From Deltaproteobacteria bacterium RIFOXYA12_FULL_61_11 (GTDB lineage Bacteria; Bdellovibrionota_F; JAHFAK01; YA12-FULL-61-11): 7,988 nucleotides of DNA. The DNA lies in contig MGSU01000196.1 in assembly GCA_001799195.1 (NCBI GenBank), positions 1-7,988 on the forward strand, given 5' to 3'. The notes under the pieces are model-generated. The model saw nothing but the letters and a program-made list of their open reading frames with translations, did not search any database and was not told the origin of the DNA. Made by a program: the position numbers and the translations under genes. Below, piece by piece: positions 4,049 through 7,988 of the stretch (its first letter is position 1; every line of letters begins with the position of its first letter).

Positions 4049-4388
4049 CGCAAACCCCCACCGTCCTCGCCCCACCCCATACCACTCGCACCAACAACCA
4101 GGCCTTCGAGTTACCCGCAGGATACTCCTGGAACCCCTCAATAGAAACCCCGCACCATCGTCAAACAAGCCCGCCCCACCAACCCATCCGGTTTCCATTA
4201 GGTCCACCTAATCACCCCGCCCGCACCTCCACACCCCACTCCCCCACCTCAAGTACCAACGCAATCACATACCTTATTCTTTCATTTCCTTATCTATCAT
4301 CTCACGCCCTACTCTCCGCCAACCCGCTTGACTTCGCTCCCCGCTTATGTGAAAGGTGGTGCAGATTGAAGATGTGGACTAATTGTAG
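4049..4388. other. intergenic stretch between backbone and cassette array
   Basis: No gene is supported here. The plus strand is strikingly poor in G between about 4180 and 4320 (C/A/T-rich). It should hold the promoter of the minus-strand membrane gene, but I cannot pick one out. No integrase gene or integrase remnant is recognisable. The segment ends at 4388, the G of the first GTTAGAA, where the cassette block begins. Confidence 0.6.
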
Positions 4389-4649
4389 TTAGAAGGCCTC
4401 GGTATACACGCCTGTGCCATACCAACCATTCATCGAAACGAAGCCGATGGTTGGGTAACCCAACGCATCTGCATCACCGTGCCTCGGGTTCCCAAATCGC
4501 CTCGGCTTGTCATCCACTCGCCATCGTGCTACCAATAACCGGTGTGCTTTACCGAAGGGGAAATTCTTGGTTCACCACCTATCAAGCCAACAAGTTACAT
4601 TTCTAACAATACCACTGCAGCGGATGCTTTGCACCGCTGACCGGTGGCG
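4389..4649 (+). mobile_element. cassette 1: ORF-less 261-bp unit
   Basis: This cassette runs from the TTAGAA after G4388 to the cleavage G of its own attC. It has no credible ORF. It contains the conserved noncoding module shared with cassettes 3, 5 and 6, including TGCTTTACCGAAGGGG at 4545-4560. It also holds two overlapping, mutually exclusive inverted repeats: CCAACCAT/ATGGTTGG (4422-4429 and 4447-4454) and TTGGGT/ACCCAA (4451-4463). The second is retained in part (GTTG, 7 nt, CAAC) in cassettes 3 and 5. Confidence 0.8.
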
Positions 4650-4655
4650 TTAGAA
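4601..4655 (+). repeat. attC site 1 (55 bp)
   Basis: The inverse core is TTCTAAC (4601-4607) and the core GTTAGAA (4649-4655), exact complements of each other. Inside, CCAC pairs with GTGG. CAGCGG and CCGCTG then form a stem, interrupted by one unpaired A, that continues as TGC/GCA around a TTT loop. The extrahelical base and short loop are hallmarks of integrase-recognised attC hairpins. Confidence 0.9.
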
Positions 4656-5094
4656 GACACAATATTTTATGAATGTTGTCGGCAAATCGTATTCACTACT
4701 CCTCGCAATTGCCTGGAATTGCCTGCTCCCTGGTGCTTACAGTTCGAAACATTTCGGCAATCAAATTGGCATCGTACAAATGCTTCTCTTTTTTACGCTT
4801 GGTATTGTATACGCATGCACCGATTCGCACTTGATAATATTTTCCATAGTTGCTGTCTGGGCATGGTCGGTTGTAACAACCTATTACTTGATTGAAAAAG
4901 AACGCAATATTGCGAATTTGTAACAACCACTCTGTTTTCTTTTTCCTTGCCTTTAGCCATCGCCTCGGCTATTCATCTCCCCAGGTTTACAACAGCCGAG
5001 CAACCGTGGTTCACCACCTTTCATACCAACATGTTGCAGTTCTAACATACCACTCCAGCGGACGCTCGCACGCTCGCGCCGCTGACCGGTGGCG
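4650..5094 (+). mobile_element. cassette 2: 445 bp, carries a small membrane-protein gene
   Basis: The cassette starts TTAGAAGACAC, unlike the GGCCTCGG start of its ORF-less neighbours, and the gene begins 19 bp into it. After the stop there is about 115 bp of noncoding sequence. Its last part (about 4955-5039) resembles the 3' end of the ORF-less unit, sharing CGCCTCGGCT and GGTTCACCACC and the ATGTTGCAG leading into the attC. Confidence 0.8.
4669..4923 (+). CDS. cassette-encoded small membrane protein, three predicted helices
   Basis: An 84-residue hydrophobic protein with start ATG 4669, 14 bases after the attC core, the usual position for a cassette gene. Three hydrophobic segments can be read: about residues 8-24 (LLLAIAWNCLLPGAY), 33-50 (IGIVQMLLFFTLGIVYAC) and 54-75 (around IIFSIVAVWAWSVVTTYYLI). 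A charged tail (EKERN) follows. The ribosome site is poor (AGAAG, over-spaced). The frame is AT-rich compared with the backbone, consistent with acquisition. A GTG-start frame overlapping it (4644-4895) has no membrane pattern and starts inside the attC, so I prefer this one. I do not recognise the family, and transcription probably depends on upstream read-through. Confidence 0.6.
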   Translation: MNVVGKSYSLLLAIAWNCLLPGAYSSKHFGNQIGIVQMLLFFTLGIVYACTDSHLIIFSIVAVWAWSVVTTYYLIEKERNIANL

Positions 5095-5100
5095 TTAGAA
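5040..5100 (+). repeat. attC site 2 (61 bp, enlarged apical stem)
   Basis: TTCTAAC at 5040-5046 and GTTAGAA at 5094-5100 enclose the same CCAC/GTGG and CAGCGG/CCGCTG stems as attC 1. The tip differs: an 8-bp tandem duplication (ACGCTCGC twice) enlarges the loop region. One A of the usual CAATACC is missing. Confidence 0.9.
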
Positions 5101-5356
5101 GGCCTCGGTATGTTCCTCTGTACCTTTTCCACCCTTCATCAAAACGAAGCCGATGGTTGTGTAGCTCAACGCGATTGCGCCGCTCCCATTTCTCTTCACC
5201 AATCGCCACGCTTGTCATCAACTTACCATCGTGCTACCAATAGCCGGTGTGCTTTACCGAAGGGGAGATTCTTTGTTCACCATCTTCTGTACCAACAAGT
5301 TACACTTATTATTTGCCGCCAGACTGGCCTTCCGCCAAGTGACAGCTTTGGTTGCG
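5095..5356 (+). mobile_element. cassette 3: ORF-less 262-bp unit
   Basis: It is the same noncoding unit as cassettes 1 and 5, with visible divergence, and begins TTAGAAGGCCTCGGTAT. The identical 16-mer TGCTTTACCGAAGGGG lies at 5250-5265. Its right boundary depends on accepting the diverged attC at 5306-5362. The resulting length (262 bp) matches cassettes 1 and 5 (261 and 260 bp), which supports that boundary. Confidence 0.65.
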
Positions 5357-5362
5357 TAACAT
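5306..5362 (+). repeat. strongly diverged attC site 3
   Basis: It sits exactly where an attC is expected, starting 40 nt after the conserved 16-mer as in the other units. The inverse core has become TTATTAT. The right side GGTTGCGTAACAT aligns with the normal GGTGGCGTTAGAA. The middle can form ACTGGC/GCCAAGT with one bulged A around a CTTCC loop, so an extrahelical-base hairpin persists although the sequence differs. Core complementarity is weak, and it may be a degenerate or differently derived site. Confidence 0.5.
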
Positions 5363-6166
5363 TATGAGAGTGCTAGTTTCTAACCACTTAGTATACATGA
5401 AACATTTAAGGTTAGTTACAATTCTATTATTATTGCTATTCGTCAGCTGCACCAAGCAATACCTGCATGCAATTAAGTCGGACTTTCATGATGCAATAAA
5501 AGCTAGTGTTGGCGTGGGTCTTGGTCTTCATGCCGATGTTAAAGTTACTGCTCTTTTCCATCCAGGCATCGGTTGGTTTGGCTGGTGGAAAATGGCTGGG
5601 ACTGAAAGCAGGTATTCCTATGGCATTTATGAACATTTATTTAGTTGTTTGTTTCCGCTCGGCTTTACCTTTATTGATGATAAACAATTGATATTGCAAT
5701 CTTTAGATTTTACTTGTTTTAAAGGTTCTGAAGAACTTGTACGGAGAAAGCATGGTGATACTATGTTTGCTAGTGCCCTCTTCGATCCGCAGAGCGTATT
5801 GAGTCTTAAAGCTTATCAACCACAAAAATATTCAGTGCACCCATGGATACTTTCCGGCAATCAAAACTCCGGTTATGATCCCACATTCACAGAACAACCC
5901 TTTGGATTGGAGATGGGACTTGGCATCATCTTCTTCTCGATACGTCTTGGCTTTGATTTAATTGAATTTATTGATCTGCTAATGACTATTTTTGGATATG
6001 ATATTCTGCACGACAATGATGAAACAAGTAAAACGATCGGATTAAATAATTCAATTATAAATGTTCATCAGAATGTTCCACAGCCATCTACCACTTCCAC
6101 CGCCATCCAATCTCATAACTTGGCTGCAGCGTATCGCCAAAAGCCGTCGACCGTGGCCCATTATCG
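5357..6166 (+). mobile_element. cassette 4: 810 bp, carries a lipoprotein gene
   Basis: Bounded by the diverged attC on the left and the attC at 6113-6172 on the right. Nearly the whole cassette is one ORF, as in typical gene cassettes, and it is the most AT-rich part of the window. If the left attC is rejected, this fuses with cassette 3 into a single 1072-bp cassette (5095-6166). Confidence 0.6.
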
Positions 6167-6170
6167 TTAG
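5397..6170 (+). CDS. cassette-encoded lipoprotein of unknown function
   Basis: A 257-residue protein starting MKHLRLVTILLLLLFVSC, a clear lipoprotein signal with lipobox LFVSC and Cys18. The mature part begins with a helix-like segment (YLHAIKSDFHDAIKASVGVG). A glycine-rich stretch follows (GLGLHADVKVTALFHPGIGWFGWW), recalling short lipoproteins from spirochaetes and related bacteria with a D..D....G.G.G..V.V pattern; this is a loose resemblance only. A hydrophobic segment with FFSIRLGFDLIEFIDLL lies at about residues 181-200. An in-frame ATG at 5364 would add MRVLVSNHLVY and is closer to the cassette start. I prefer 5397 for the signal peptide, though neither has a good ribosome site. The last 19 codons lie in the attC, and the TAG stop is within the core GTTAGAA. 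Codon use is AT-rich compared with the backbone. Confidence 0.75.
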   Translation: MKHLRLVTILLLLLFVSCTKQYLHAIKSDFHDAIKASVGVGLGLHADVKVTALFHPGIGWFGWWKMAGTESRYSYGIYEHLFSCLFPLGFTFIDDKQLILQSLDFTCFKGSEELVRRKHGDTMFASALFDPQSVLSLKAYQPQKYSVHPWILSGNQNSGYDPTFTEQPFGLEMGLGIIFFSIRLGFDLIEFIDLLMTIFGYDILHDNDETSKTIGLNNSIINVHQNVPQPSTTSTAIQSHNLAAAYRQKPSTVAHYR

Positions 6171-6172
6171 AA
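6113..6172 (+). repeat. attC site 4 (60 bp, diverged interior)
   Basis: The inverse core is TCATAAC (6113-6119) and the core GTTAGAA (6166-6172). The interior retains CTGCAGCG...GACCG.TGGC from the main attC type but with many changes, so the stem is imperfect. The stop codon of the lipoprotein gene is formed by TAG of the core. The next cassette begins TTAGAAGTCTCCGGTAT, a variant of the usual start. Confidence 0.7.
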
Positions 6173-6426
6173 GTCTCCGGTATATTCATCTGAACCATTC
6201 CCACCATCCTCAAAACGACGCAGACAGTTGTGTACCCCAACTCAACTGCATCACCGTGCCTCTGATTCTCAAATCACCTCGGCTTGTCATCAACCCTCCA
6301 TCGTGCTATCAATGACCGAGGTGCTTTACCGAAGGGGAAATACTTGGTTCACCACCTTTCATGCCAACATGTTGCAGTTCTAACAATACCACTGCAGCGG
6401 ATGCTTCGCACCGCTGACCGGTGGCG
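6167..6426 (+). mobile_element. cassette 5: ORF-less 260-bp unit
   Basis: Third full copy of the noncoding unit. The identical 16-mer is at 6322-6337, and its 3' part (GGTTCACCACCTTTCAT.CCAACATGTTGCAG) is nearly the same as the end of cassette 2. No ORF with coding character is present on either strand. Confidence 0.8.
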
Positions 6427-6432
6427 TTAGAA
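6378..6432 (+). repeat. attC site 5 (55 bp)
   Basis: TTCTAAC at 6378-6384 and GTTAGAA at 6426-6432. It differs from attC 1 by one base in the loop (TTC for TTT) and keeps the same single-base bulge stem. Confidence 0.92.
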
Positions 6433-6605
6433 GGCCTCGGTATACACGCTTGTAACATCCCCTCCATCCTCAACTCAAAGCCGCTGGTTAGGTTGTCCCG
6501 CATTGCGAAGGACCGGCCTGGGGTGCCCGATTTGCAACTGATGGCACAACGTCACAACAACCATATACATGGAACGAAAGCAATACGTTGGAGGCGAGCC
6601 CAGGG

Positions 6606-6628
6606 CGAGCCAGGGACGGGCTGGCTCG
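6606..6628. repeat. perfect 8-bp inverted repeat, 7-nt loop
   Basis: CGAGCCAG (6606-6613) and CTGGCTCG (6621-6628). It is the first of three consecutive hairpins in the insertion within cassette 6. Confidence 0.7.
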
Positions 6629-6634
6629 GTCCTT

Positions 6635-6646
6635 CGCTTCGAAGCG
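6635..6646. repeat. 12-bp perfect palindrome
   Basis: CGCTTCGAAGCG, directly between the two larger hairpins of the cassette 6 insertion. Confidence 0.75.
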
Positions 6647-6654
6647 TTTCTTTG

Positions 6655-6686
6655 CCTTCTTTCTTGTCGCTCAACAAGAAAGAAGG
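6655..6686. repeat. perfect 13-bp inverted repeat, 6-nt loop
   Basis: CCTTCTTTCTTGT (6655-6667) and ACAAGAAAGAAGG (6674-6686) around CGCTCA. No T-run follows on either strand, so it is not a standard intrinsic terminator. It resembles dispersed palindromic elements seen in many bacterial genomes. Confidence 0.8.
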
Positions 6687-6859
6687 TCGAACGGCGGGGT
6701 TATCAAATCCAGCGTATCTTGATCCGCTGGTCGAAACCGCGCTTGAGTTCTCAAATCACCTCGACTTGTCATCAACCCCCTATCGTGCTACCAATAACCG
6801 GTCTGCTTTACCGAAGGGGAGCTTCGTGGTTCACCACCTATCATGCCAACATGTTACAG

Positions 6860-6898
6860 TTCTAACAATACCACTGCAGCGGATGCTTCGCACCGCTG
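6860..6898 (+). repeat. attC site 6, truncated by the IS
   Basis: TTCTAAC (6860-6866) through the apical stem to CACCGCTG (6891-6898) is identical to attC 5. The expected ACCGGTGGC and GTTAGAA are then missing and IS sequence follows. The right half should lie beyond the IS, outside the window, unless it was deleted. Confidence 0.85.
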
Positions 6899-6963
6899 CC
6901 CTTTGTGCCAATGAAGAGTGAGACAGAAATGGAGGTTAAGTTTATTGTAGAGGAGAGGGCGGG

Positions 6964-6969
6964 AAGGAG
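6964..6969 (+). promoter_or_regulatory. ribosome binding site of orfA
   Basis: AAGGAG ends 8 bases before ATG 6978. This decides the start in favour of the longer orfA, with a basic N-terminal extension of about 47 residues before the helix-turn-helix. Confidence 0.7.
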
Positions 6970-6977
6970 CACGAAGG

Positions 6978-7448
6978 ATGAAGAAGGAAGAGAAGGAAGC
7001 AACGAGAGCCGGGTCACCGGAGGGAGACCGGAGGTCGACCGGAGGGGACCCGGCTGGGCAGGTCAGGAAGATCGTACGAGGGAGTGGACCGGATCCGGAG
7101 GTGATCGGCTGTGCGCAGCGAAGGACGTTTACAGCCGGGTACAAAGTGAGGATCCTGGAAGAGGTTGATCGGTGCCAAGAAGGCGAGATTGCGGCGCTGC
7201 TGCGGCGGGAGGGCTTATACTACTCCCATCTGCAAGCCTGGCGTGAGCAGAGGGCACAAGGTACCCTTGCCGGGTTGTCACCGAAGAAACGAGGGCCTGC
7301 GCAGAAGCCGATCGGCCGGGACTATGTGAAGAAGTTGGAGCACGAGAACGAGCGATTGCGTAAGAAGCTCGCCATGGCCGAGGAGATCATCGAGATCCAA
7401 AAAAAAGTATCGGCCCTGCTCGGCAACCAGCAGCTCGAGGAATCGTGA
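6978..7448 (+). CDS. IS3-family transposase OrfA (DNA-binding subunit)
   Basis: A 156-residue protein that recognises the IS ends. After a hydrophilic N-terminal tail (1-47) comes the helix-turn-helix region at about 48-100, with RRTFTAGYKVRILEE, LLRREGLYYSHLQAWR and a GLSPKKRG linker. A leucine-zipper-like coiled coil follows at about 115-150 (YVKKLEHENERLRKKL...), ending QKKVSALLG. This order is typical of the OrfA group whose proteins start RRxFTAEYKLRIL. The TGA stop overlaps the ATG of orfB (TGATG). Near its end there is an A8G run and an inverted repeat that may couple or frameshift the two frames. It appears intact. Confidence 0.92.
   Translation: MKKEEKEATRAGSPEGDRRSTGGDPAGQVRKIVRGSGPDPEVIGCAQRRTFTAGYKVRILEEVDRCQEGEIAALLRREGLYYSHLQAWREQRAQGTLAGLSPKKRGPAQKPIGRDYVKKLEHENERLRKKLAMAEEIIEIQKKVSALLGNQQLEES
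7399..7407 (+). promoter_or_regulatory. A8G slippery run, candidate -1 frameshift site
   Basis: Eight As and a G fall in the orfA frame as CAA AAA AAA GTA, so A AAA AAA (7400-7406) is a legitimate slippery heptamer. A -1 slip enters the orfB frame, which is open from here through the orfB start. IS3 elements commonly make an OrfAB fusion this way. The motif also encodes the conserved QKKV, so it may simply reflect codon choice. Confidence 0.45.
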
Positions 7449-7476
7449 TGACCTCGATCCTTGCCCGGCAGGGCCG
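7411..7476 (+). promoter_or_regulatory. 9-bp inverted repeat enclosing the orfA stop and orfB start
   Basis: CGGCCCTGC (7411-7419) pairs perfectly with GCAGGGCCG (7468-7476). It starts 4 bases after the slippery run. Its 48-nt loop holds the GAGGA ribosome site (7437-7441), the orfA stop and the orfB ATG. It could stimulate frameshifting or control access to the orfB start. Confidence 0.4.
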
Positions 7477-7988
7477 GCTGCCCATCAGGAGCCTGTGTAG
7501 CGCGCTGGAGATTGCGCCAGCCAGCTATTATCCGTGTTTTGCACCGCGGCCGAGCCCCGAGCGTCAGCGAACTCGGGGCCGGCCACCACTGGCACTTAGT
7601 GCCGAGGAGGAGCAGCAGGTCATGGACTTGGTCAACCGTCCCGAGTTCATGGAGCAGGCTCCGGCCAGCATTAATGCAATCCTCCAGGAGCGTATGCCCT
7701 ACGTGTGCTCGACCAGGACCATCTATCGCCTCTTGGCCAAGCATCGTCAGGTGCGGGAACGTCGAAACCAACTCCGGCACCCCGTGTACACTCGACCGGA
7801 ACTGCTGGCCACGGGACCTTGCCAGCTCTGGTCCTGGGATATTACAAAACTCCGGGGGCCGATTCCCTGGACCTACTACTACCTCTATGTGGTCCTCGAC
7901 GTGTTCAGTCGCTATGTGGTCGGCTGGCTCATCGCTGACACCGAGACCAGTGCCCTTGCCCAGCAAGTGCTCGGCGAGAGCTATCACA
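7448..7988 (+). CDS. IS3-family transposase OrfB (DDE catalytic subunit), truncated by window edge
   Basis: The first 180 residues of the integrase-like transposase, which carries out strand cleavage and transfer. Start ATG 7448 overlaps the orfA stop by one base and is preceded by GAGGA with 6-base spacing; GTG 7445 is an alternative. The N-terminal part (IRSLCSALEIAPASYY, then EFMEQAPASINAILQE and STRTIYRLLAKH) is the usual helical domain. The rve domain opens at QLWSWDITKLRGP, where Asp131 (7838-7840) is the first catalytic Asp of the DDE triad, followed by WTYYYLYVVLDVFSRYVVGW. The second Asp and the Glu lie beyond the edge. No stop or frameshift is seen. Confidence 0.93.
   Translation, partial: MTSILARQGRLPIRSLCSALEIAPASYYPCFAPRPSPERQRTRGRPPLALSAEEEQQVMDLVNRPEFMEQAPASINAILQERMPYVCSTRTIYRLLAKHRQVRERRNQLRHPVYTRPELLATGPCQLWSWDITKLRGPIPWTYYYLYVVLDVFSRYVVGWLIADTETSALAQQVLGESYH

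Follow-up and report, generated by a model that had tools for sequence, protein, structure and literature searches.

The window analyzed here is a contig of 7,988 nt (MGSU01000196.1, C196 in the following) from the draft genome of Deltaproteobacteria bacterium RIFOXYA12_FULL_61_11, and its positions 4389–6898 form an integron cassette array. Repeated in this array is a module of about 260 bp that contains the invariant 16-mer TGCTTTACCGAAGGGG close to its 3′ end. We assign the repeated units to a known kind of element, the gene-less integron cassettes, within which they appear to represent a new family. A possible reading, which we favor only tentatively, is that the units are copies of one ancestral gene-less cassette and that their 3′ trailer restarts translation of the cassette that follows. 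The identity of the units as cassettes, the sharing of the trailer, the arrangement of Shine-Dalgarno (SD) sequence, start codon and stop codon in trailers of the type that carries the 16-mer (type A) and the lack of amino-acid constraint are established observations, from which we infer transcription and translation of a short reading frame and its coupling to the next gene.

Cassettes 1 (4389–4649) and 5 (6167–6426) show the unit in its complete form; like the other cassettes, the attC sites, the 16-mers and the attI-like site of the window, they lie on the forward strand. Both are bounded by G/TTAGAA crossover points and contain an attC site (4602–4654, 70.4 bits, and 6379–6431, 72.8 bits) that was detected by a covariance model trained on the genome's own attC sites. 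Their lengths of 261 and 260 bp agree with a preliminary description of this DNA, and so does their similarity along the whole unit, which amounts to 85%. Neither contains an open reading frame (ORF) of at least 70 amino acids, the criterion for gene-less cassettes in PMC11014356. The preliminary description had counted a third ORF-less cassette of 262 bp, for which the evidence is different. In this copy 3 of the module (5095–5356) the covariance model finds no attC, so its length is a guess, and a 92-codon ORF is present at 5089–5367; the copy has probably become fused to gene cassette 4 downstream of it. Cassette 6 (6427–6898) is indeed the same module with an insertion, at about 6499–6740, and ends in a truncated attC (6861–6898; 27.2 bits over 6861–6923) that adjoins an IS3-type element. 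Another full-length copy with attC and crossover boundaries is found at C124:141–413 and holds a 91-codon ORF (C53, C56, C74, C95, C99, C124, C325 and C332 denote other contigs of the same genome). The ORFs of 91 and 92 codons are not conserved across the copies.

The 16-mer, the 3′ end of which is the SD-like GAAGGGG, is identical in the four copies of the window (4545–4560, 5250–5265, 6322–6337 and 6804–6819), as had been noted before, compared to 0.04 matches expected by chance at up to three mismatches. Outside the window, two exact copies are present on C124 and one copy with a single mismatch on C74. Wherever an attC exists, the end of the 16-mer lies 41 nt before its TCTAAC, which bears out the constant distance reported earlier. 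The four full copies have diverged to unequal extents along their length (p = 0.005), and their longest invariant run of 18 nt is above that of shuffles (p = 0.007). In the 3′ part, for which seven copies could be compared, the longest invariant run measures 15 nt (p = 0.009), with p = 0.048 for the best 16-nt window; all these values derive from column shuffles that ignore the relatedness of the copies. The C74 copy is diverged and isolated, yet it kept 15 of the 16 bases. Support for conservation of the 16-mer beyond chance is moderate, and its excess over the shuffles is modest.

When all cassettes were aligned on their attC, similarity beyond the attC, which the preliminary description had called unusual, turned out not to be special to ORF-less cassettes. 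The last ~36–40 nt before the attC (nTGGTTCACMACC...CCAACAnGTTnCAGT) are common to the gene-less cassettes, to cassette 2 (4650–5094; attC 5041–5099, 81.6 bits), which contains an ORF for a small, membrane-like protein of 84 amino acids (4669–4923), and to a HicBA cassette on C124, in which HicA was identified by Pfam and HicB by position only. Weaker versions of this tail occur in other cassettes, and the sharing is graded in length. The fixed distance between 16-mer and attC is hence a property of a tail shared with gene-bearing cassettes and not of the 16-mer alone. Upstream of the tail, the cassettes have one of three things: the 16-mer-bearing element, referred to as type A, an element of type B characterized by a CTCGGCT...AGCCGAG hairpin (cassette 2, C124:2279, C124:4107 and C99), or directly a gene. 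Homology between the type A and type B trailers was considered and rejected, as their likeness is only weak. A type A element on C95, located 3′ of a gene, is diverged and has not kept the 16-mer. Since the copies on C74 and C95 lie outside the window array and are devoid of the 5′ half of the unit, the recurring element is the 3′ trailer rather than the 260-bp unit, and the gene-less cassette appears as one context of the trailer. The C74 copy (1822–1980, locus L071) consists of a lone diverged attC with a type A trailer, flanked by a tRNA-Arg gene on one side and a restriction-helicase-like gene on the other. HicA/HicB-like toxin-antitoxin cassettes are located on C124 at 1317–1693 and 4182–4599 (locus L070).

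According to the translation-restart reading, the integron integrase (IntI) of this genome would have moved copies of one ancestral cassette with the trailer common to this integron at its 3′ end, and the trailer would act in cis on the expression of the next cassette. GAAGGGG, the 3′ half of the 16-mer, would be the ribosome-binding sequence, and ribosomes would start at a conserved ATG, GTG or TTG situated 36 nt before the CTAAC of the attC. Reading 28–30 codons would take them across the attC, the hairpin of which they would open in the mRNA, to a stop codon formed by the TAG of the GTTAG core, with the next gene beginning 1–15 nt further on. In cassette 1, the putative short ORF (4567–4653) begins with TTG 6 nt past the 16-mer, has 28 codons, crosses the attC and ends with TAG in the R′ core; its counterpart in cassette 5 (6344–6430) likewise has a TTG, 28 codons and the R′ TAG. 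The spacing between GAAGGGG and start codon is 6–7 nt in the copies with the 16-mer. An ATG, GTG or TTG is present at the start site in 11 of 12 trailers, the exception being copy 3, which also lost its attC, and the frame is open across the attC up to the R′ TAG in 8 of the 11 trailers checked (cassettes 1, 2 and 5, C124_88, C124_354, the HicBA cassette, C74 and C95a). The length difference of 6 nt between the 53- and 59-nt forms of the attC is a multiple of three. The ATG of the HicBA cassette is located one codon past the HicA stop (TAA-TAC-ATG), and genes that follow a trailer have their start codons 1, 11 and 15 nt past the TAG.

No reading frame of the unit showed signs of selection at the protein level. 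For the open frames in the 3′ part, the ratio of non-synonymous to synonymous change (pN/pS) was 0.85–0.87, and the 5′ half gave 1.4; changes in the 3′ part were evenly distributed over the codon positions (18/15/16), and the frames of cassettes 1 and 5 are shifted relative to those of copy 3 and the C124 copy, with an additional stop in cassette 5. For these reasons, a protein-coding function of the unit was dropped. Restart of translation is compatible with the missing amino-acid constraint, because amino-acid changes in ORF-11 of the attI1 site of class 1 integrons had little effect (PMC8876359).

Further points in favor of translation restart are the integrase gene and the 14 attC matches of the genome (see below), the anti-SD energy of –7.9 calculated for the exact 16-mer copies, a value attained at 11 of the 347 NTG sites of the arrays, and the combination of SD sequence, start codon and open frame, which is found in ~3% of shuffles. 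Several points weigh against it. The 11 of 347 and ~3% figures are not independent tests because the hypothesis was formed post hoc and the copies are related. The anti-SD sequence of the host was assumed, as no 3′ end of the 16S rRNA could be located in the assembly. A good SD sequence is absent from type B trailers and from the HicBA cassette, the frame of C124_2279 stops after 9 codons, and in C124_4107 and C99 the frame ends elsewhere than at R′. Synonymous changes are not in excess (pN/pS 0.85), and translation restart does not explain the 5′ ~115 nt of the cassette.

Alternatively, the units could be passive, empty cassettes, i.e. degenerate or gene-free copies spread by IntI and homologous exchange, in which the tail would be retained as part of the attC-proximal end that serves recombination or exchange, with the 16-mer conserved by chance. 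The pN/pS close to 1 in open frames, the lack of significant structure (see below), the conservation of the best 16-nt window at merely p = 0.048 and the graded sharing of the tail with gene-bearing cassettes are all consistent with passive spread. The long non-conserved ORFs in two copies resemble relics or chance occurrences, and decayed genes are known among the gene-less cassettes of Vibrio (PMC11014356). In contrast, the uneven divergence of the unit, the invariant run above shuffles (p = 0.009) and the retention of 15 of 16 bases in the isolated, diverged C74 copy are not readily accounted for by passive copying. We consider passive spread quite possible and, taken by itself, slightly likelier than translation restart; the active mechanism was nevertheless chosen as the main interpretation because passive spread is the null explanation.

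A promoter in the trailer that is directed at the next cassette is a serious alternative, as is passive spread, but appears less likely than either passive spread or translation restart. The motifs TTGnnn and TA(C/T)nnn are found 17 nt apart at the same place in the otherwise differing type A and type B trailers, and most of the 29 gene-less Vibrio cassettes tested had promoter activity on the sense strand (PMC11014356), as had ORF-less cassettes from oral metagenomes (PMC6557892). However, a consensus scan detected no strict sigma-70 site at 4200–6950, where 4.9 would be expected from shuffles, and the second hexamer is without its final T. The bases common to type A and type B trailers reach p values of 0.04 to 0.11, and the 16-mer itself would lie downstream of the supposed –10 box.

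It is very unlikely that the unit encodes a small regulatory RNA similar to sRNA-Xcc1 of Xanthomonas, with the 16-mer as pairing or seed region. The unit has no conserved gene, and in three full copies the cassette start CCTCGGTATA could pair with TTTACCGAAGG of the 16-mer, but the C74 copy retains the 16-mer without the 5′ arm. Folding of the alignment was not significant for a conserved RNA structure, with z-scores of –1.4 to –1.8 for the top strand and ~0 for the bottom strand; cassette 1 folded no better than shuffles (z = –1.0), and no Rfam family matches the unit. The bottom strand of cassette 1 gave z = –2.7, but the attC is part of the folded stretch, and with the attC excluded, the alignment gave ~0. 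A conserved structure of RNA or of single-stranded DNA was dropped on this basis. Of the functions envisaged in the preliminary description, the RNA-producing element is not supported, whereas a regulatory element and an empty cassette both stay in play. A small protein gene inside the cassette, to which the frames running through the unit on C124 (91 codons) and at 5089–5367 (92 codons) with an ATG 7 nt past AGAAGG could point, is most improbable in view of the frameshifts in cassettes 1 and 5, the stop in cassette 5, the pN/pS of 1.4 in the 5′ half and the even codon positions of the 3′ part.

Sequences related to the unit were found neither in 386 related genomes or one other genome of the phylum nor in phage and plasmid collections, and the tail pattern was not found in viral contigs. 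In genome contigs at large, the 16-mer had 57 matches, all single, compared to ~120 expected by chance (2 × 257 Gb / 4^16), and the few that could be aligned to the module did so over 19–23 nt only. Within the collections searched, the best reading is that the family is private to this lineage.

The genome assembly comprises 4.64 Mb in 342 contigs and belongs to a barely sampled phylum. Genome-wide, the covariance model identified 14 attC matches, distributed over C95, C124, C196, C74 and C99; those of the window are the three sites at 4602–4654, 5041–5099 and 6379–6431 and the truncated one at 6861. A single integron integrase in the whole genome scored above the curated cut-off (C95:1082–2026, TIGR02249, 455 bits with a cut-off of 265). 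The window array is headed by an attI-like site (4330–4392) with 92% identity over 63 nt to the region adjoining intI on C95, including an identical core of 20 nt, and no integrase gene is present beside this site or elsewhere on C196. Three attI-like regions, at 4330–4392 of the window, at C95:834–896 and, in decayed form, at C53:10081–10133, are thus accompanied by one intI gene, on C95. Unless the assembly is at fault here, a single integrase would act on more than one attI site. Upstream of attI, a palindromic motif is located at 4198–4211 of the window (TTAGGTCCACCTAA) and at 1013–1026 of the C95 intI region (locus L072; TTAGGTCAACCTAA), which is possibly a regulator site for intI. The gene of cassette 4 (5397–6170) encodes a lipoprotein-like protein without a Pfam family, and its stop codon is situated within the GTTAG core. 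The insert of cassette 6 contains, at 6645–6738, a hairpin repeat (CCTTCTTTCTTGT...ACAAGAAAGAAGG) that is dispersed in the genome with further copies on C56, C325 and C332. The IS3-type element (6861–7987) with HTH_Tnp_1 and rve domains directly follows the truncated attC of cassette 6, and the contig ends inside it.

Clusters of attC sites without an integrase are known as CALIN (PMC9024848). The window array resembles these in having attC sites on a contig without intI, but it begins at an attI-like site, intI is present elsewhere in the genome, and a link between the two could be hidden by the draft contigs. Gene-less or ORF-less cassettes have been described in Vibrionaceae (PMC11014356) and oral Treponema (PMC6557892), and as in those, the cassettes described here have an attC, no long conserved ORF and several copies in chromosomal arrays. 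They differ in forming one family with a conserved 3′ trailer that is common to gene-bearing cassettes, in belonging to a barely sampled host phylum and in that no strict promoter was found. The integron-encoded small RNA sRNA-Xcc1 of Xanthomonas campestris is cited in PMC6557892 and PMC8876359; our cassettes are similar to it as non-coding integron cassettes but differ in that they have no conserved structure. The expression of distal cassettes in long integron arrays is an open question. One answer is provided by gene-less cassettes with promoters, and restart of translation across the attC by a cassette would, if true, add a second. That empty and gene-bearing cassettes share the trailer to graded extents additionally bears on how new cassettes are built. 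The closest parallel to the trailer frame is ORF-11 of attI1, which obtains its stop TAG from the cassette core site (PMC8876359). Relief of the attC hairpin by short ORFs located in the site has also been described (PMC8876359). Like ORF-11, the trailer has a putative ribosome-binding sequence, a start codon, a short frame ending with TAG in the GTTRRRY core and little amino-acid constraint. Unlike ORF-11, the predicted frame has 28–30 codons and mostly a GTG or TTG start. It was not classed as ORF-11 because it is located upstream of and across attC and not in attI. By analogy, a mobile translation-restart cassette, in which a ribosome-binding sequence and a short attC-crossing ORF hand ribosomes to the next cassette, may be a portable counterpart of attI1 ORF-11, a more specific proposal that we regard as somewhat unlikely.

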